64,000 nt of DNA from contig NZ_ASGZ01000029.1 of assembly GCF_000495475.1 (NCBI RefSeq), positions 72,000-135,999 on the forward strand, read 5' to 3'. Shown one piece after another: positions 3,948 through 33,361 of the stretch (the first letter of the stretch is position 1; every line of letters begins with the position of its first letter). Source of the DNA: Candidatus Halobonum tyrrellensis G22 (GTDB lineage: Archaea; Halobacteriota; Halobacteria; Halobacteriales; Haloferacaceae). The notes below the pieces were generated by a model. It was not told where the DNA came from. It did not search any database and was given only the letters and a program-made list of their open reading frames with translations. The position numbers and the translations under genes were made by a program.

Positions 3948-5927
3948 TCAGTCGCCGTGCCGGGTCACGCAGACGGGCAGGCCGGTCACCTCGACCGGCT
4001 CGGAGTTGTCGGGCGAGTACACCACCATCTGCCCCTTCTCCATGTACGGCACCTTCTCCGAGAGCGCGGGCGGGATGTTCACGCTGGAGATGGCGTCGTC
4101 GTCGCCGAGGTTGAGCACCAGCCGCGTGTTGACCTGCTTGAACACGGGGTCGGCGATGTCCTGGGGGTCCTGCGTGACGAGGAACAGCCCCAGCCGCTCC
4201 TTTCGCCCCTGCTTGGCCGCCTCGGTGAACGTCGAGATGACCTTCCGCGCCTGGACGTTGTCGGCCTCCGCGAGGAAGTTGTGCGCCTCGTCCATCCCGA
4301 GGAGCAGCGGCGTCTCGTCGACCCGGCGGCTGGTCGGGTCGTTCGAGAGCTTGTCGTCGACCAGCATCGTCGACACCGCGAGCACGAACATCTCCTTGGC
4401 GCGCGACGACGAGAGGTGGTAGGTGGGCACCACCGTCAGCCCGCCCGGCCGGACCAGCGTGGTGTCCAACTCCGTGATGGGTTTCGCGTCCTGGTCGAAC
4501 ACGCCCGAGGGGACGCCGCGGACGCGCCGCTTGACCGCGTCGTACGTCGCCTCGTGGACCCGACCGGACTCGTGGAGCTCCTCCTTGAGCGCCGGGTCGT
4601 CGAGAAACGAGAGGAACTCCTCGTAGGTGCCGTCGTCGTAGTTGCGGAAGAACCGCCGCAGCAACTGCGCGAGCGCGGGGAACTGGTTCTCGTTGAGCGA
4701 CGCGCCCGCCACCAGCCACGGCATGTCGTACTCGTCGACGATGCTGAACGGTATCGTGAACTCCACCTGCTCGGCGCGGTGGCCGCTCCCGGGGTAGCTC
4801 ACGCCCGCCTCCTTCGGGACCAGCGCGACGGTGTCGTCGTGGCCGCCGTGGGCGACCCCCTCCCGGTCGAGCCGTCGGGCGGTCTCGGCGTTGAGCGCGT
4901 CGTTGTCGTCGTGCATCTGGGCGTACTCGTCTTGCGGGTCGAACAGGACGACGCCCGCCCTCGCGTCGCGGCCGTCGTCCATCTCGTACGTCCGGTCGAG
5001 ATACTGCCTGAGGACGTTCTTCGACGCGTGGGTCTTCCCCGACCCGGTGCCGCCCGCCACCAGCGTGTGCCGGAAGACCAGCGGGTCGCCCGCGTCGTAG
5101 TCGTCCTTCAGCCGGTAGTCGACCGTCGGCGGCTCCGCCGCGGTCCGAACCTTCTCGCCGCCGACCGAGAGGTGACCGAGGAACACCCCGTCGTCGGGGA
5201 TGGCTAGCCCGGTCTTGATCTGGTCGGCGTCGGTCGCCTGCCGGACCAGCGCGCCGGGCTTCGGCACCCGGTCGGCCATCCGCCGTTTGAGTTCGCCGCC
5301 CTGCGAGAACAGCACCGCCGTCGGATCGAGTTCGGCGACGAACTTGTAGTCGGCCTCGGTGAACCCGTCACCCCCCTCGCGCATCCGCCTGCGGGCGGTC
5401 AACTCCGTCGCGTCGTCCGTCCGGAACTCCTGGGCGTACTCCAGGGCGGTGATCCGCGAGAACAGCGTCTCCCCGTCCGGGTAGGGGACCAGCAGGTACG
5501 TCCCGATCCGGACCGCGTCGCGGTTGTCGGCGGTGACGAACGCCCGCAGACACGTCTCGTCGCCGTCCTCGGCGACGCGTAGCCCCTGTGCGACCGAGAC
5601 GGTGCCTACCCCCTCGGCGGCCCGCCCGTCCGCCGCCTCCATCGCGTACCGGGTGAACCCGCCCGCCCCGTCGTCGTCCGCGTCGGCGGTCCCGGAACGC
5701 CCCGCCCCGTCGGCGGCGTCCGCGGCCGTACCGCCCCCGGTTCCGTCGCGGTCCGCGCCGCTCGCGTCCGCCGCCGTCGCCGCGTCCGCGTCCGCCGCCG
5801 CCTCGCCCTCCCCGTTCCCGTTCGTCGCGGGCGTCGACTCCGACCCGGCGTCGTCGCCCGCGCCGAACGCCTCGAAGTCCCCCAGTTCCGGACCGCTCGA
5901 ATCGTTCGGGTCGCCCGAATCCGTCAT
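3948..5927 (-). CDS. herA: HerA-like hexameric DNA translocase ATPase
   Basis: About 659 residues. An acidic, disordered N-terminus of ~110 residues precedes an HAS-barrel-like region and a HerA/FtsK RecA core with Walker A GGTGSGKTHASKN, the strand LFDPQDEYAQ and Walker B LLLGMDEAHNF. C-terminal motifs include FLVTQDPQDI and the arginine-finger region NTRLVLNLGD. HerA pumps DNA and works with the NurA nuclease in end resection with Mre11-Rad50. A NurA gene lies 640 bases upstream on the same strand. The start is ATG 5927; an in-frame ATG at 5954 adds nine residues. Confidence 0.85.
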   Translation of the reverse strand: MTDSGDPNDSSGPELGDFEAFGAGDDAGSESTPATNGNGEGEAAADADAATAADASGADRDGTGGGTAADAADGAGRSGTADADDDGAGGFTRYAMEAADGRAAEGVGTVSVAQGLRVAEDGDETCLRAFVTADNRDAVRIGTYLLVPYPDGETLFSRITALEYAQEFRTDDATELTARRRMREGGDGFTEADYKFVAELDPTAVLFSQGGELKRRMADRVPKPGALVRQATDADQIKTGLAIPDDGVFLGHLSVGGEKVRTAAEPPTVDYRLKDDYDAGDPLVFRHTLVAGGTGSGKTHASKNVLRQYLDRTYEMDDGRDARAGVVLFDPQDEYAQMHDDNDALNAETARRLDREGVAHGGHDDTVALVPKEAGVSYPGSGHRAEQVEFTIPFSIVDEYDMPWLVAGASLNENQFPALAQLLRRFFRNYDDGTYEEFLSFLDDPALKEELHESGRVHEATYDAVKRRVRGVPSGVFDQDAKPITELDTTLVRPGGLTVVPTYHLSSSRAKEMFVLAVSTMLVDDKLSNDPTSRRVDETPLLLGMDEAHNFLAEADNVQARKVISTFTEAAKQGRKERLGLFLVTQDPQDIADPVFKQVNTRLVLNLGDDDAISSVNIPPALSEKVPYMEKGQMVVYSPDNSEPVEVTGLPVCVTRHGD

Positions 5928-12916: not shown

Positions 12917-12931
12917 TAGTCCCGGGCGGAT
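12917..12931. repeat. attL, left 15-bp direct repeat of the element
   Basis: TAGTCCCGGGCGGAT is identical to 33289-33303. The sequence equals the 3' acceptor strand and part of the T-stem of tRNA-Gln read on the plus strand. Chromosome-like G+C ends here, and AT-rich sequence (AAATCACAAATTGTTAG) starts at once on the right. Confidence 0.85.
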
Positions 12932-12976: not shown

Positions 12977-14377
12977 ATGGGAGTCGACGACCCGCATAAC
13001 CTCGACTCGCAGTTGCAGAGTCAAAAGGAAAAATTGGACTCGCTCTCCGATGAGGACGCCCGGATGCTGTGGGACTTCGCGGCTGTCGCCAGTAAGGAGA
13101 TGGCCGTGTCGACGGTCATCCAGTATCTCTCGAAACTCCGTGCTATCTCGGAGAAGTCTGACGCACCAATCGAAGAACTGACCCCGCGGCAGATGGACTC
13201 CGTTCTTGACGACCTTGAGGAAGAACGCGGCTGGTCAAGCAAGGGAACGCGTCGCAACTACGAGAAGGCGCTGAGAGTCCTTTGCCGAGAACTACGAAAC
13301 GCCCGTGTCGAGGAGTTTGGGCGTGACTACTCGTCAATTCTCCCGGCACGTGGTGCCATCCGTCTCTCGGACAAGGACGAAACGAAGATCACTCCCGAAG
13401 ACATCCTGACACGCGAGCAGATCGAGACGCTGATACAGGATTGCTGCCGGACAGCGCGCGATCGAGCCATCGTCGCGATGCTCGCCGATACGGGGCTTCG
13501 AATCGCACAGATGCTCTCGCTGCGCGTCAAGGACGTGGATTTCAGGGAGAATTCGGGTGGCGGATTTTTCCAAGCAAACCCGGATGCGACTGGTTTGAAG
13601 GGGGATGACAAGCGGAAGCCGCTTACGTGGTCGGCAGCTCACATCGAGAGCTACCTGTTCGACGAGCATCCCCGACCGGACGATGACGAAGCACCCTTGT
13701 TCCACAAGTCGGAAGGATGGACGGATGAGGACGATGATGGCAGTATGACGCCGGCACTCGTCCGTCAACGGCTTGAGAGACTCGTTAGGGATGGTGACAC
13801 CGACCTTGATCCAGAAGATGTCCACCCCCACGTTTTCCGGCATACTGCCGTCACTATTTGGGCGCGTCAGGGATTTACGGACAGGGAAATCAAGCATCGG
13901 GCCGGTTGGAGTCGGGATTCGGATATGCTTGACCGGTACGAGCACATCCAAGAAGACGAGATTAATAAGCAGGTTCTCCAGCGGTACGGGTTCGACATCG
14001 ATGAGGACGGGATTGGTGAGCCTGAACTCGACCGATGTCCGCGCTGCTCGGCGGCATTGACGCCAGAAGCGAACTACTGCCCACGGTGTAGCGCACGTGT
14101 CCAGATTCCGGAGGATACCGTGATGGAACTCCTGATGGAAATTGTCACGAATACGAGTGGGCCGGCAATCGACGAGATCGGTCGCGACGGCCAATCGGCG
14201 GAAGACGCGATTCGGAGCGGTAACATCGAAGCGGAAGAAGTCCGGACGCTGCTCGATGTGCAAGCCGAAACAATCGGGTTCAGCGATTGGACGGAGTGGC
14301 ACGAGCAGCGGTTACAGGAGCGGTTTGGTATCGACATCGACGAGTACCGCGGACGTGGGGGACAGCCACGACGATAA
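12977..14377 (+). CDS. Tyrosine recombinase (integrase) with C-terminal zinc ribbon
   Basis: A 466-residue protein: SAM-like N-terminal core-binding domain (~10-120), then the catalytic domain with Arg175 (ADTGLRIAQML), His285-x-x-Arg288 (HPHVFRHTA), Trp311 (KHRAGWS) and the nucleophile Tyr321 (DMLDRYEH). Two CxxC pairs follow (Cys354/357 and 368/371), forming a zinc ribbon, with a helical tail of ~90 residues. This layout is common in haloarchaeal element integrases. It lies next to attL and probably catalyses integration at the tRNA-Gln 3' end. The ATG at 12977 gives the full core-binding domain. Confidence 0.93.
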   Translation: MGVDDPHNLDSQLQSQKEKLDSLSDEDARMLWDFAAVASKEMAVSTVIQYLSKLRAISEKSDAPIEELTPRQMDSVLDDLEEERGWSSKGTRRNYEKALRVLCRELRNARVEEFGRDYSSILPARGAIRLSDKDETKITPEDILTREQIETLIQDCCRTARDRAIVAMLADTGLRIAQMLSLRVKDVDFRENSGGGFFQANPDATGLKGDDKRKPLTWSAAHIESYLFDEHPRPDDDEAPLFHKSEGWTDEDDDGSMTPALVRQRLERLVRDGDTDLDPEDVHPHVFRHTAVTIWARQGFTDREIKHRAGWSRDSDMLDRYEHIQEDEINKQVLQRYGFDIDEDGIGEPELDRCPRCSAALTPEANYCPRCSARVQIPEDTVMELLMEIVTNTSGPAIDEIGRDGQSAEDAIRSGNIEAEEVRTLLDVQAETIGFSDWTEWHEQRLQERFGIDIDEYRGRGGQPRR

Positions 14378-17446: not shown

Positions 17447-17941
17447 TTATGAGTCTTCACCCGCACTGATGCGCGAATCCGTCTCGTCAACGAGGACGCG
17501 CTTGATGTTGCGGATTTCCTCGGCGACCTCTTCGAGGTCGTCGTCGTGATCCTCTACCTCGTCCTCAAGATCCACGATACGGGTCTTCACCTTACCGTAG
17601 GTCTCCCGCATTCGACCCACCTGCTTCTCCAACCGCAACATCCGCTCCTCAAGTGGGAGCGTCTCCGTGTCCTCGTCGAACTCCTCGGCGATCTCACGGC
17701 CAGCCTCCGTAGGCTCGGCCACTCGCACCGCCATCTGATGCTCAGGCGTCCGTTCGTCGTCGTGCCACGTTTCGATTAGCCCGCATCCTTCGAGATTGTT
17801 GAAGCGGTACCGGGCCTGACTGCCCGTATCGATACAGTACAGTTGCTCTTTGATCGTGCTGGTACTCACAGCCCTGTCAGCGTCAACGACGGCGTGCAGA
17901 ACGGCTAGATCCTCTCGGGCAAGGTCGATGTCGTCGTCCAT
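17447..17941 (-). CDS. Winged-helix regulator with coiled-coil tail
   Basis: A 164-residue protein. Residues ~8-80 look like a winged helix (VLHAVVDADRAVSTSTIKEQ, then YRFNNLEGCGLIETW), and ~95-150 form a long charged coiled coil likely to dimerise. ATG 17941 is chosen because upstream codons are basic and Gly/Ser-rich. It probably controls element genes. A 14-bp repeat (17961-17974) lies 20 bases upstream and recurs at 18410-18423, a candidate operator pair. Confidence 0.72.
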   Translation of the reverse strand: MDDDIDLAREDLAVLHAVVDADRAVSTSTIKEQLYCIDTGSQARYRFNNLEGCGLIETWHDDERTPEHQMAVRVAEPTEAGREIAEEFDEDTETLPLEERMLRLEKQVGRMRETYGKVKTRIVDLEDEVEDHDDDLEEVAEEIRNIKRVLVDETDSRISAGEDS

Positions 17942-18300
17942 CACCTCTACCTTATTTGATGGTTTACCAACGCCCGTAAGTGCTCCCCGAGAACACCCCG
18001 TTTGAACTTGCGCGGCGAAACTGCCGGCTTTCCACCCCGTGAACGCCACCGGGGATTCAACGCGATGCCGGCGCGGCACACCGAGCGCCGTCAGTATATA
18101 GACCGTCTCGGCGGCGGTAGCGGAGGCTCCGCAGTGCTCCGCGTGCCGGACTCCCCCGCCTCAACCTCAGGAGTGGATCTCGAGTGCGTGTCCGCGTGGC
18201 CGGGGCAGAGGCCCGCACCGTGGGTGAGGAGGAGACCGCCTCGGCGGCGTCTCCCAGCACCCTCTCCGCTGTGAGGGCTGGATTCCCCTGACCCTCGTGA

Positions 18301-20784: not shown

Positions 20785-20865
20785 GCAACGCAAGTGACGT
20801 CGGTGACGAAAGCAACATCGGTGGCGTAAGAGACCCAAGTGACACAAGTGGCGAAAGCGACGCCA
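20785..20865. repeat. Tandem 9-bp array A
   Basis: Nine imperfect 9-base units in strict register, for example GTGACGTCG, GTGACGAAA, GTGGCGTAA, GTGACACAA and GTGGCGAAA (consensus near GTGACGNAA). It lies immediately after the stop of the preceding gene. Four units of the same family recur inside the replication gene at 24271-24306. Confidence 0.65.
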
Positions 20866-21360
20866 CCCACGCCTCCTACCAACGACCCCCACCGCCGTTG
20901 CGAATTAGCGGATGCTCGTCGAGTAGGGACGTCAGTTGGCGTCAGACCCTGAGGTTCTGACACCCCGTACTCCGTGATTTTACCATCTTCGACGCCTTTT
21001 CCGTGTAGGTAGAGATTGTCCCGGTGGTGGGGTGTCAGACCCTGATCACTCCAAGGTTCTGACGGGGGATCGCGGGGCGTTTCAGAGCCTATTGGTTCAA
21101 TTTTCATCTTCTTTTGGTGGGTCAACCAAGGGGGGCGTCAGAACCTTAGCGCATATTTGTACCCCCGCCTACACCTTCTGAGATCCCCCCAAGGGAGTGT
21201 GCAAAGTACGCTGCAGGCTCTGACCACTCTGACACCCCGTCGTTTTACCCTTGTGAAGCGGTTTACTGCCCGACCTCGATCTGAGGCAGGTTCTGACACC
21301 GGGTCTGACACCTGCCGGTGCTGGTAGCGAGTGCGGTGTCTGGCTGACGGAACCACCCGC

Positions 21361-21429
21361 GTCCAGTGAATCCAGTGCGTCCAGAGCAGCCAGTGCGTCC
21401 AGAGCAGCCAGTGAGTCCAGTGTAGCCAC
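21361..21429. repeat. Tandem 9-bp array B
   Basis: Seven full units plus a partial one: GTCCAGTGA, ATCCAGTGC, GTCCAGAGC, AGCCAGTGC, GTCCAGAGC, AGCCAGTGA, GTCCAGTGT. The same family forms array C about 90 bases downstream. Confidence 0.75.
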
Positions 21430-21515
21430 TACTCGGGATGAAAAAGTGGAGAATTGGACTCTGACCAGTCAATTATTAGGTTCTGACAGGTAAAACAGTT
21501 TCTCACACTACCCGC

Positions 21516-21578
21516 GTCCGGTGTAGCCAGTGCGTCCGGGGCGTCCAGTGTATCCTAAGCGTCCAATGCGTCCGGGCC
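21516..21578. repeat. Tandem 9-bp array C
   Basis: Seven units of the array B family: GTCCGGTGT, AGCCAGTGC, GTCCGGGGC, GTCCAGTGT, ATCCTAAGC, GTCCAATGC, GTCCGGGCC. It ends about 45 bases before the replication gene start. A copy of AGGTTCTGAC lies between arrays B and C. Confidence 0.75.
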
Positions 21579-21590
21579 GTCTTCTGTTTC

Positions 21591-21600
21591 GTATTTATAC
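21591..21600 (+). promoter_or_regulatory. TATA-like box of the replication gene
   Basis: GTATTTATAC lies 24-33 bases before the ATG at 21624, the spacing expected for a leaderless haloarchaeal transcript. Array C abuts it, so a protein bound to the repeats could control expression. Confidence 0.5.
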
Positions 21601-21623: not shown

Positions 21624-24600
21624 ATGGACTCTGACCGATCCATCACCCCGCGCGAAGTGATTGAAGCCCGTCTTGACGAGTCTGATGTCCGAACCGACAA
21701 CCGGTACGTCTCCGTTGCAGACGGCGAGAAGGTCTGCTACGGCGATCACACCGACACCGACAACCGGTACGACAGCCCTCCCGCTGGCAACTTCGGCGTC
21801 TACCTGACTGCCGCCGACCAACTCGTCGTCCTCGACGTGGACGACTACGATGGTGACGACCTCCCGTTCGACCTCCCCGACACGCTCATCGAGGAGAGTC
21901 CGCACGGTGGCGAACACCTCTACTATCACGTCCCCGTGGACGCGGACGGTCGGATGCCGGCCGCCGTGTTCGACGATGAGATCGGCGCGAAGAACCCAGT
22001 TCCGTCTTGGGGCGAAGTCCAAGTCAGCAACAAGTACGTCGTCGCCGCGGGCAGCACGCTCGACGACTGCGGCAAGGAGTGGCACGACTGCACTCAGCCG
22101 GACGAAGGCGACTACACCGTTGCCGAAGACCGCGAGATCGCGACGGTCTCTGCCGAACGGCTCGTCGAAGTGCTGCTATCCGACTCGGAGATTGAGGAGC
22201 CGACCCCCGACCTGAAGCCGGGGACGCGTGAGCACGAGAACGACGACGTCTACCTCGACGTCCACGACGTGCTGTTCAGCGCGGAGTACCCCGAAGAGGA
22301 ACGGACGGCTCACCCCGTCCACGGCTCCAGCACTGGCACGAACTTCCAAGTCGACGACGGCGCTGAGACTTGGCGTTGCTGGCGGCACGGCTGCACCGGT
22401 AACGCCCTCCACCTGATCGGGATGCAGCACGACATCATCGAGTGCGGCGAGTGGGATAACGGCGGTCTCGACACGGAGACGTGGCGCGAGATCTTCGCCG
22501 CCGCCCGCGAAGACGGGTACGACATCGGCGACCCGCACTCTCACGACGAACCTGAGGAGCCGGACTACGACGGCGTGGATGACGAGGCCGACCTGATCGA
22601 CCTCGCCCGTGACCGCGTGCAGGACGTCTTCGCGCGAATGAACCCACCCGAAGACGAGGACGTCGAATCGCTCGGGAAGAAACCGGCCATTCACGAGTTC
22701 GCGGTCATCATCGACACCTACTGGCACTGGCTCTACCCGGACGCGGCCAGCGCAGAGTGGCAGAACACGCTCTACATCTACGACGTAGACCGAGGCATCT
22801 ACACCACGAACGGCGAGACCGCCGCGGAGGAGATCACCGAGAAGCTCCTCGGTGACTTCGCCGACAACCACGTAGTCTCAGAGATCGTCGCCAAGCTCAA
22901 GCGTCGTAACCGTGCCGCAGCACGGGAGATTGACGCACAGAAGCCGCCGGCGCACGAACTCGTCGTTGAGAACGGCATCCTTAACCTGAAGACCGGCGAA
23001 CTCCGCGACTACACCCCGGAGGAGTACCACACAACCCGTGTGGATGTGGCGTACGACCCCGACGCCCAGACCGACCGCATCGACAAGTTCTTCCGCGAGG
23101 TCGTGGACGACGGGCACGTCTCGACGCTCTACCGCCTTGCCGCGCATATACTCCTCAAGGAGTATCCGTCGCGCAAGGCAGCACTCCTCGTCGGTGAGGG
23201 CGCGAACGGGAAGGGCACCGTCCTTGACCTGTTTGAGGAGTTCGTCGGGAGTGAGAATACGGTCGCCCGCGGCATCCAGAGCCTCACCGACTACCGCTTC
23301 GCGGCGCAGGATCTGCACGGGAAGCTCGCCAACCTCGAAGGCGACCTCTCGCCGAACGAGCTGAACGACAGTCGGATGATCAAGAAGCTCACCGGTGACG
23401 ACCAGATCAATGCGGACGTCAAGCAGGCCAACGAGACGGTGAACTTCCAGAACCACGCGACGCTGATGTTCGCGGTGAACACCGTGCCGCAGTCCCCCGA
23501 GGACTCTCACGGTTGGTGGAGCCGGTGGATGTACATTCCGTTCCCGAACCGGTTCGACGGCGATGATGCGAAGCCCAAGAGCGAGCTGATGGACGAACTG
23601 ACGACCGAGGAAGAACTGCAGGGGCTTCTCGCCCGCACCGTCGAAGAGATTCAGCGGTACGACGAGACGGGCGAGTTCTTCCCCGAGAGTAAGACCCCGG
23701 AGGAAGTCCGTGAGCAGATGAAGAACGCGGCGAACCCCGTCCGCGACTTCGCGACGACCGCGTTCAATGAGGTGGAAGAACCGGACGGAGCCTACGGTCG
23801 AGTGCGGAAAGACCACGTCGTGGATGCGTACTCCCGGTACGCCGACGAACACGACCTCCCGAACCTGAACCCGCAGAAGCTCAAGGACGACGTCAAGAAA
23901 CTCGACGACTTCACCATCGAAGCCGGTCAGTCTCGCGCTCTCAGCGATGATGACCGCGTCCAGTGCTTCGTCGGCATCGAGTGGACTGCCCGGGGCGCAC
24001 AGCTCGCGGCCATCGAGCAGCCGGACGACGATCAGGGCGTACTGGACGGCGACTGGAAGCAGGACGTGCCGCTCGCCGACGTGCGTGAGTACGTTGAGAC
24101 CCACCCCGAGGCGGACGTGTACGAGGTGATGCGCGAGTTCGGGTTCGGCGGTGACGCGTTCGATGCGGTCGAGCACCTCGTCGAGGGCGTCGACACCGAC
24201 TCCGACGACGGGGGTGACGACGACCCGGATGCGGGGGGTGTGAACACTAACGACACCGAGGACGACGACAGTGACGAAAGCAGCGCAAGTGACGATGGTG
24301 GCGACACCGACGGAAGTACCCCCGACCGCCGGTACACGGCGGCGCAGAAGGAGCAGGCCGTCGAGGCGATGGCCGAGGACACCGACGAGGACGCCGATGA
24401 GATCGCCGAAACGCTCCTGATACGCGAGGAAGACGAAGACGAGGTGACCGAGATCGTCGCAGGCGTCCGTGGCGATGAGGACGACACCGAGGATCCCGCG
24501 CCGCCAGCACCGCCGGAGTCGGACGCACCACCCGTGACCGATGTGCCGACGCGGGGTGAGGACGAGGACGGCATCGAGTACGACACCGAGGAGATCGGCG

Positions 24601-24767
24601 ACCCGGGCGATGTGGTGGCCGCCCACGGCGAGGTTGACGCTGGTGTCGAGGATGTCGACGTCATCGTCATACCCCGCGACGAGTTCGGAATCGCCGTGGA
24701 GGCCGCATATGCACGCGACGTTGAGTTCGTGACTCCTGATGGTGATTCTATCGGTGATGCGGAATGA
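21624..24767 (+). CDS. Primase-polymerase / D5-type SF3 helicase replication protein
   Basis: A 1047-residue protein. Residues ~50-170 resemble an archaeo-eukaryotic prim-pol domain (VLDVDDYD acidic pair near 71-73, SPHGGEHLYY with His98). CWRHGCTG near 252 looks like part of a zinc motif. Residues ~440-720 are a D5_N plus SF3 AAA+ helicase: Walker A GEGANGKGT (~525), Walker B LANLEGDLS (~570) and sensor MFAVNTVPQS (~616). A winged-helix-like segment follows. The last ~200 residues are an extremely acidic, repetitive linker and a small terminal domain. It probably primes and unwinds the element DNA. Confidence 0.85.
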   Translation: MDSDRSITPREVIEARLDESDVRTDNRYVSVADGEKVCYGDHTDTDNRYDSPPAGNFGVYLTAADQLVVLDVDDYDGDDLPFDLPDTLIEESPHGGEHLYYHVPVDADGRMPAAVFDDEIGAKNPVPSWGEVQVSNKYVVAAGSTLDDCGKEWHDCTQPDEGDYTVAEDREIATVSAERLVEVLLSDSEIEEPTPDLKPGTREHENDDVYLDVHDVLFSAEYPEEERTAHPVHGSSTGTNFQVDDGAETWRCWRHGCTGNALHLIGMQHDIIECGEWDNGGLDTETWREIFAAAREDGYDIGDPHSHDEPEEPDYDGVDDEADLIDLARDRVQDVFARMNPPEDEDVESLGKKPAIHEFAVIIDTYWHWLYPDAASAEWQNTLYIYDVDRGIYTTNGETAAEEITEKLLGDFADNHVVSEIVAKLKRRNRAAAREIDAQKPPAHELVVENGILNLKTGELRDYTPEEYHTTRVDVAYDPDAQTDRIDKFFREVVDDGHVSTLYRLAAHILLKEYPSRKAALLVGEGANGKGTVLDLFEEFVGSENTVARGIQSLTDYRFAAQDLHGKLANLEGDLSPNELNDSRMIKKLTGDDQINADVKQANETVNFQNHATLMFAVNTVPQSPEDSHGWWSRWMYIPFPNRFDGDDAKPKSELMDELTTEEELQGLLARTVEEIQRYDETGEFFPESKTPEEVREQMKNAANPVRDFATTAFNEVEEPDGAYGRVRKDHVVDAYSRYADEHDLPNLNPQKLKDDVKKLDDFTIEAGQSRALSDDDRVQCFVGIEWTARGAQLAAIEQPDDDQGVLDGDWKQDVPLADVREYVETHPEADVYEVMREFGFGGDAFDAVEHLVEGVDTDSDDGGDDDPDAGGVNTNDTEDDDSDESSASDDGGDTDGSTPDRRYTAAQKEQAVEAMAEDTDEDADEIAETLLIREEDEDEVTEIVAGVRGDEDDTEDPAPPAPPESDAPPVTDVPTRGEDEDGIEYDTEEIGDPGDVVAAHGEVDAGVEDVDVIVIPRDEFGIAVEAAYARDVEFVTPDGDSIGDAE
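24271..24306. repeat. Four 9-bp units of array A family inside the replication gene
   Basis: GTGACGAAA, GCAGCGCAA, GTGACGATG and GTGGCGACA lie in one register, the same words as array A at 20785-20865. They encode part of the acidic linker (SDESSASDDGGD). Confidence 0.5.
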
Positions 24768-33288: not shown

Positions 33289-33303
33289 TAGTCCCGGGCG
33301 GAT
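33289..33303. repeat. attR, right 15-bp direct repeat of the element
   Basis: TAGTCCCGGGCGGAT is identical to 12917-12931. It overlaps the last 14 bases of tRNA-Gln (3' acceptor strand and start of the T-stem), so the gene was restored on integration. Confidence 0.85.
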
Positions 33304-33361
33304 TCGAACCGCCGTCGAAGGCTCCAAAGGCCCTCATGATTGGCCACTACACCACGGGACT
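33290..33361 (-). tRNA. tRNA-Gln (anticodon UUG)
   Basis: A complete cloverleaf of 72 bases: acceptor AGTCCCG pairs with CGGGACT. The anticodon arm AGGGC-CTTTGGA-GCCTT gives loop anticodon TTG, and the T-arm is GGCGG-TTCGAAT-CCGCC. No CCA end is encoded and no intron is seen. It serves as the integration target of the element on its 3' side. A T-rich TTTTG run follows within 20 bases on the minus strand. Confidence 0.93.

Follow-up and report, generated by a model that had tools for sequence, protein, structure and literature searches.

A probable P4-type iteron origin upstream of the replication gene of an integrated haloarchaeal element

Introduction

Three arrays of 9-bp tandem repeats, with a short word scattered between them on both strands, lie just upstream of a replication gene in Candidatus Halobonum tyrrellensis G22. 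What are these repeats for? A sequence-only reading of the locus had proposed a candidate replication origin and, on account of the short 9-bp units, a possible novel mode of initiator binding. We address the question within the window (the whole 64-kb stretch of DNA that was analysed) and by comparison with homologous replication genes elsewhere.

The alpha protein of phage P4 is an SF3 helicase-primase with a C-terminal winged helix (PMC4234260), and the P4 record (NC_001609) contains type 1 repeats of 8 bp, found on both strands at steps of 9-11 bp, and tandem type 2 repeats with a 10-bp step. The pri-rep-ori modules of PICIs and SaPIs have an AT-rich stretch with a set of iterons on either side (PMC6092414; PMC7581432). 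The origin of pRN1 from Sulfolobus is a stem-loop without iterons, an arrangement that has been proposed as general (PMC4234260).

Results

The repeats lie in an integrated element

The surroundings of the locus are haloarchaeal-type chromosome, and a lower-GC island holds the repeats. A 15-bp direct repeat marks the ends of a 20.4-kb element (12917-33303) that is integrated at a tRNA-Gln gene (Table 1). The element encodes a type I restriction-modification set, and we recognised no virion genes among the element proteins scanned. The repeat region is directly 5' of the initiator gene, whose product has 7OLA as its nearest solved structure (E 3e-18, residues 380-751). Residues 660-790 match the Pox_D5/RFX winged-helix region of haloarchaeal relatives (hhalign 97.8%, E 8e-13); we assigned the winged helix by this homology, as the C-terminus of the AlphaFold model is too poor to use (pLDDT 49.5). 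Rfam gave no match. All the repeats fall, as the sequence-only reading had said, within about 840 bases ending at the promoter of the replication gene, where the putative TATA-like box TATTTATA stands ~25 bp ahead of the ATG at 21624.

Table 1. Features of the element and its repeat region (positions in the window).
Feature	Position	Strand	Description
Left attachment repeat TAGTCCCGGGCGGAT	12917-12931		exact 15-bp direct repeat of tRNA-Gln 3' end
Tyrosine integrase	12977-14377	+	Pfam Phage_integrase 3e-18
Array A	20785-20874	+	9-bp step, unit ~AAGTGACGN
Divergent candidate iteron pair GTCAGACCCTGAGGTTCTGAC	20941-20961		cores 15 bp apart
Divergent candidate iteron pair GTCAGACCC...GGTTCTGAC	21034-21063		cores 24 bp apart
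Candidate iteron AGGTTCTGAC	21137-21146	-	left flank of 82-bp centre
Tandem candidate iteron pair AGGCTCTGACCACTCTGAC	21215-21233	+	cores 9 bp apart (21219/21228); right flank of centre
Candidate iteron pair AGGTTCTGACACCGGGTCTGAC	21288-21309	+	cores 12 bp apart
Array B	21361-21432	-	8 x 9 bp, unit GTCCAGTGC; reverse strand CWCTGGACG
B-C spacer	21433-21515		relatively AT-rich; candidate iteron words ~21456-21465 and 21478-21487
Array C	21516-21587	-	7 x 9 bp, unit as in array B; adjoins rep promoter
Putative archaeal TATA-like box TATTTATA of replication gene	21593-21600	+	read from sequence
Replication initiator	21624-24767	+	1047 aa; Prim-Pol, D5_N, DUF5906 SF3 helicase, C-terminal winged helix of Pox_D5/RFX type
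Right attachment repeat	33289-33303		3' end of tRNA-Gln gene (33289-33361, - strand)

Three arrays with a 9-bp step

Arrays A, B and C all keep the exact 9-base register first noticed in them, and the unit count given earlier stands for C (seven) and not for B, which has eight units rather than seven. The units as read also bear out one consensus for B and C and another for A, which is degenerate (units AAGTGACGT, CGGTGACGA, AAGCAACAT, CGGTGGCGT, AAGAGACCC, AAGTGACAC, AAGTGGCGA and AAGCGACGC). Array B has in addition an 18-bp super-period (TRF score 98). The best lag-9 identity per 63-bp stretch is 0.63 in A, 0.69 in B and 0.61 in C, compared to a mean maximum of 0.40, and no value above 0.54, when the region was shuffled 2000 times under a first-order Markov model. 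Elsewhere in the 64 kb, array B is matched at lag 9 at a single site, ~63470. Arrays B and C are oriented alike, not inverted, with their inner cores ~94 bp apart, and the AT peak of the region (0.57, over 80 bp at 21425) lies between them. No close relative of the element, and none sharing arrays A-C, turned up in the contigs searched.

A dispersed word concentrated in the region

The dispersed word AGGTTCTGAC occurs exactly five times, four on the + strand (20952, 21054, 21288 and 21478) and one on the - strand (21137), in agreement with the earlier count of at least five copies in both orientations. All five sit between arrays A and C, four lying within the A-B interval. Several one-base variants accompany them, the near copies including AGGGTCTGAC (20941-, 21034-), CGGGTCTGAC (21300+) and AGGCTCTGAC (21215+), and the TCTGAC core is found 11 times in 839 bp. 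A genome-wide count, suggested by the sequence-only reading as a check, shows that the motif is enriched: of 21 copies of GGTTCTGAC in the 3.68-Mb genome, 5 are within the 840 bp and 16 are in the other 3.67 Mb (Poisson P ~5e-15). Among 391 genomes searched, only one other has the divergent paired pattern seen at 20941-20961. The ~82-bp centre between words (21143-21218) is not AT-rich (AT 0.43).

Short iterons beside homologous replication genes

We gathered homologs of the initiator from haloarchaeal genomes, named plasmids and a phage, and fetched a second set afterwards from viral and genome contigs; flanks, controls and shuffles were all treated by one fixed procedure. Many homolog loci have a locus-specific word of 8-10 bp that recurs in both orientations immediately 5' or 3' of the gene; roughly half have no strong iteron set in a word search that misses weak iterons. 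The commonest tandem step beside the haloarchaeal relatives is 9 bp, which accounts for 36 of the 76 same-strand gaps of up to 40 bp between motif copies in their flanks. Facing inverted tandem pairs occur in 11 of 103 haloarchaeal flank segments, versus 1 of 341 same-locus controls and 0 of 103 shuffled segments; in the second set they occur in 5 of 58 flanks and 0 of 61 controls (pooled: 16/161 flanks versus 1/402 control segments). At most of these pairs the centre has a higher AT content than the DNA around it, and the distance from inner start to inner start is often 92-95 bp. Oriented iterons contain GAC at 13 of 18 loci, versus 2 of 18 when reversed, a few of the orientations being assigned from partial layouts. 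Iteron similarity tracks winged-helix similarity weakly, and in the correct orientation only (Mantel r 0.18, P 0.024).

By these patterns we predict iteron origins with locus-specific words at L079 (pHTUR06), L078 (pCBA1220-05), L077, L133, L044, L047 and L234-L236, which are carried by named plasmids, genome-borne elements and viral contigs. The initiators of pHTUR06, pCBA1220-05, the Halomarina PSR21 plasmid (L077) and Halorubrum tailed virus DL_1.7 (L076) are homologous to the one in the window and also have locus-specific short iterons, but the iteron words differ, and no long 9-bp arrays like A-C were seen at these four loci. More generally, the recurrence of the repeats beside homologous replication genes holds for the short 9-bp-spaced iterons and fails for the long arrays, which have no counterpart there except that L054 has runs of 3-4 copies and L128 has short ones.

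Other kinds of repeat were also seen. A group of more distantly related viral contigs (L246, L247 and L252-L258) has the iteron TGCGTCCA in common, in a P4-like arrangement 3' of the primase gene. Upstream of the primase genes at L045 and L063 there are repeats of a different type, with a 22-bp period and a GCTAT-like core.

The nearest relatives of the initiator, on viral contigs L234-L236, have 39-41% identity to it. The L235 iteron, CTCTGACACC, is almost the same as the window's TTCTGACACC; the L234 iteron, CCTGGACGT, resembles arrays B and C read on the other strand (CTCTGGACG); and the L236 iteron, CCGTGACAC, resembles array A (GTGACG).

Mirror-symmetric layouts

Eight layouts were picked for display as ordered-looking clusters, and 6 of these 8 (L235, L236, L133, L044, L047 and L079) show more mirror symmetry than shuffled layouts do (P <=0.013), so the symmetric share must be lower among all loci; symmetry was not significant in L234 and L246. 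The L133 layout, for example, reads - 22 + 63 - 9 - 80 + 9 + 63 - 22 + 10 +. The annotated P4 ori reads - 10 - 11 - 22 + 43 - 10 -, and crr contains + 9 + 43 -; by these spacings, half of a haloarchaeal layout resembles P4 ori. The TCTGAC layout of the window is not mirror-symmetric (P 0.98), and the strict facing-pair test found no complete facing inverted pair among its words, which are spaced irregularly (Table 1). Because of these two results we call the window's region a variant P4-type origin.

Patterns set aside

Several apparent parallels were rejected. A 9-bp CCAGT array at L058 encodes the SGDTGE repeats of a lipoprotein, and 9-bp periodicity alone is therefore a poor sign of an origin. 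As a genome-wide signature, tested in 170 genomes, YCASW at 9-bp spacing was not enriched over its reversed control. Viral contigs L229-L232 have GTCCAGAGC arrays and no primase homolog, the array in L232 lying in an open frame. The divergent GGTTCTGAC pairs in viral contigs have no adjacent primase, and the pair in G185 is an isolated palindrome. A search with the initiator as single protein gave no match in viral contigs, and in genome contigs it gave pattern matches with no confirmed relative. Separately, we noted that the unrelated viral contig L230 has, in noncoding AT-rich DNA at 4059-4125, a 9-bp tandem repeat of GTCCAGAGC (~7.7 copies).

Discussion

Comparison with homologous replication genes supports the candidate origin well. 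Judged by sequence comparison, the region has local enrichment of a word, a 9-bp step, a position beside the gene, an iteron class common to the relatives, and an initiator with a homologous winged helix; from these features we infer binding, melting, origin activity and the protein that reads the arrays. GGTTCTGAC is most likely the iteron of the initiator, and the region most likely a P4-type origin, because the word is enriched here, its class of iteron is common to the flanks of homologs, and the L235 iteron is nearly identical. The integrated 20.4-kb element very probably has its replication origin and rep promoter here, the origin being of P4/PICI type with iterons that the winged helix of the initiator would bind. 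The proposed novel binding mode is not supported by the comparison: P4 type 1 repeats are 8 bp long at steps of 9-11 bp, and the haloarchaeal relatives most often show a step of 9 bp, so a 9-bp unit is normal for P4-type origins and no new mode of binding is called for.

The window resembles P4 ori/crr in having short repeats in both orientations, with steps of 9-11 bp, together with an additional tandem array, and its initiator gene, next to the repeats, encodes a D5-type SF3 helicase-primase with a C-terminal winged helix, as alpha is. It differs in its irregular word layout and longer arrays, and in its primase domain, which is an archaeo-eukaryotic Prim-Pol rather than the Toprim of P4. 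In the haloarchaeal relatives a single palindrome contains two facing halves, each like P4 ori, whereas ori and crr of P4 are several kb apart. PICIs and SaPIs likewise combine an initiator helicase and an adjacent iteron origin in an integrated island, but there, as in L234-L236, the origin is downstream of the gene, and in the window it is upstream. As for the PICI arrangement of iteron sets around an AT-rich stretch, arrays B and C lie on either side of a relatively AT-rich spacer (AT 0.57) but point the same way, and the DNA in the middle of the words shows no AT enrichment. With the pRN1 family the element has in common a Prim-Pol, an SF3 helicase and a winged helix in one archaeal protein.

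We propose that the C-terminal winged helix of the initiator would bind the short iterons, TTCTGACACC words present in both orientations, that two helicase assemblies would load face to face and melt the DNA between iteron groups, and that the Prim-Pol domain would then prime. Our leading guess is that arrays A-C are degenerate iterons of the same initiator; as further 9-bp-step sites they may aid assembly or copy control. Because array C abuts the promoter it could also provide autoregulation, perhaps by shutting down the rep promoter. The main rival to this guess keeps the dispersed words as the origin and assigns the arrays to another protein, as the operator of a rep repressor or as the partition site of a small dimeric DNA-binding protein (compare the tandem heptads of ribbon-helix-helix proteins). 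The location of array C beside the rep promoter would suit such a protein, the array units do not simply repeat the dispersed word, and the element encodes other possible DNA-binding proteins, with 17447-18079 looking winged-helix by eye. We nevertheless regard this rival as unlikely, since the 9-bp step is also the step of the initiator's iterons in relatives, both array classes resemble the iterons of the nearest relatives, and no partition ATPase was seen among the element proteins scanned. That the arrays are functionless, either neutral minisatellite-like repeats or the remains of coding repeats, is more doubtful still: GC-rich coding DNA does give rise to 9-bp repeats, comparable lag-9 values are found elsewhere in the window, and both the coding array at L058 and the YCASW result point in this direction, but here three arrays, two of them with one consensus, occupy a single noncoding-looking 840-bp stretch and adjoin a gene from an initiator family that uses 9-bp steps.

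Two further alternatives concern the origin itself. The domain order of the initiator is that of pRN1 ORF904, and a stem-loop rather than iterons has been proposed as the target of such proteins (PMC4234260), so that the Prim-Pol/SF3/winged-helix protein might assemble on a large stem-loop to which the repeats are secondary. This seems very improbable, because the relatives have iteron clusters instead and none of the stretches tested folds more stably than shuffled versions of itself (z -0.63 to 0.27). No stem-loop of ~100 nt was found in the stretches tested or after the rep stop, where the ~45 bp before the next gene would be too little for one. Haloarchaeal chromosomes use Orc1/Cdc6 origins with ORB elements. 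We give almost no credence to an origin of that type here, as the region has no ORB-like match with up to three mismatches to TTCCAGTGGAAAC, which we take to be the ORB consensus.

Returning to the P4-type origin that we favour, the representative of archaeal Prim-Pol/SF3/winged-helix replicons had been pRN1; many haloarchaeal relatives have predicted P4-like iteron origins of regular geometry, which was not expected from pRN1. We suggest tentatively, with slightly less belief than doubt, that haloarchaeal Prim-Pol/SF3 replicons have a common origin code, unnoticed so far in the open papers that make up the literature covered, which consists of locus-specific iterons at 9-bp steps, an oriented GAC core, and a mirror-symmetric layout like a double P4 ori. 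The element in the window would then be derived, its long arrays partly replacing facing pairs around the B-C spacer. Such origins link archaeal and bacterial satellite replication, and the predicted origins gained for several plasmids, including pHTUR06 and pCBA1220-05, may provide a basis for simple vectors and binding assays.
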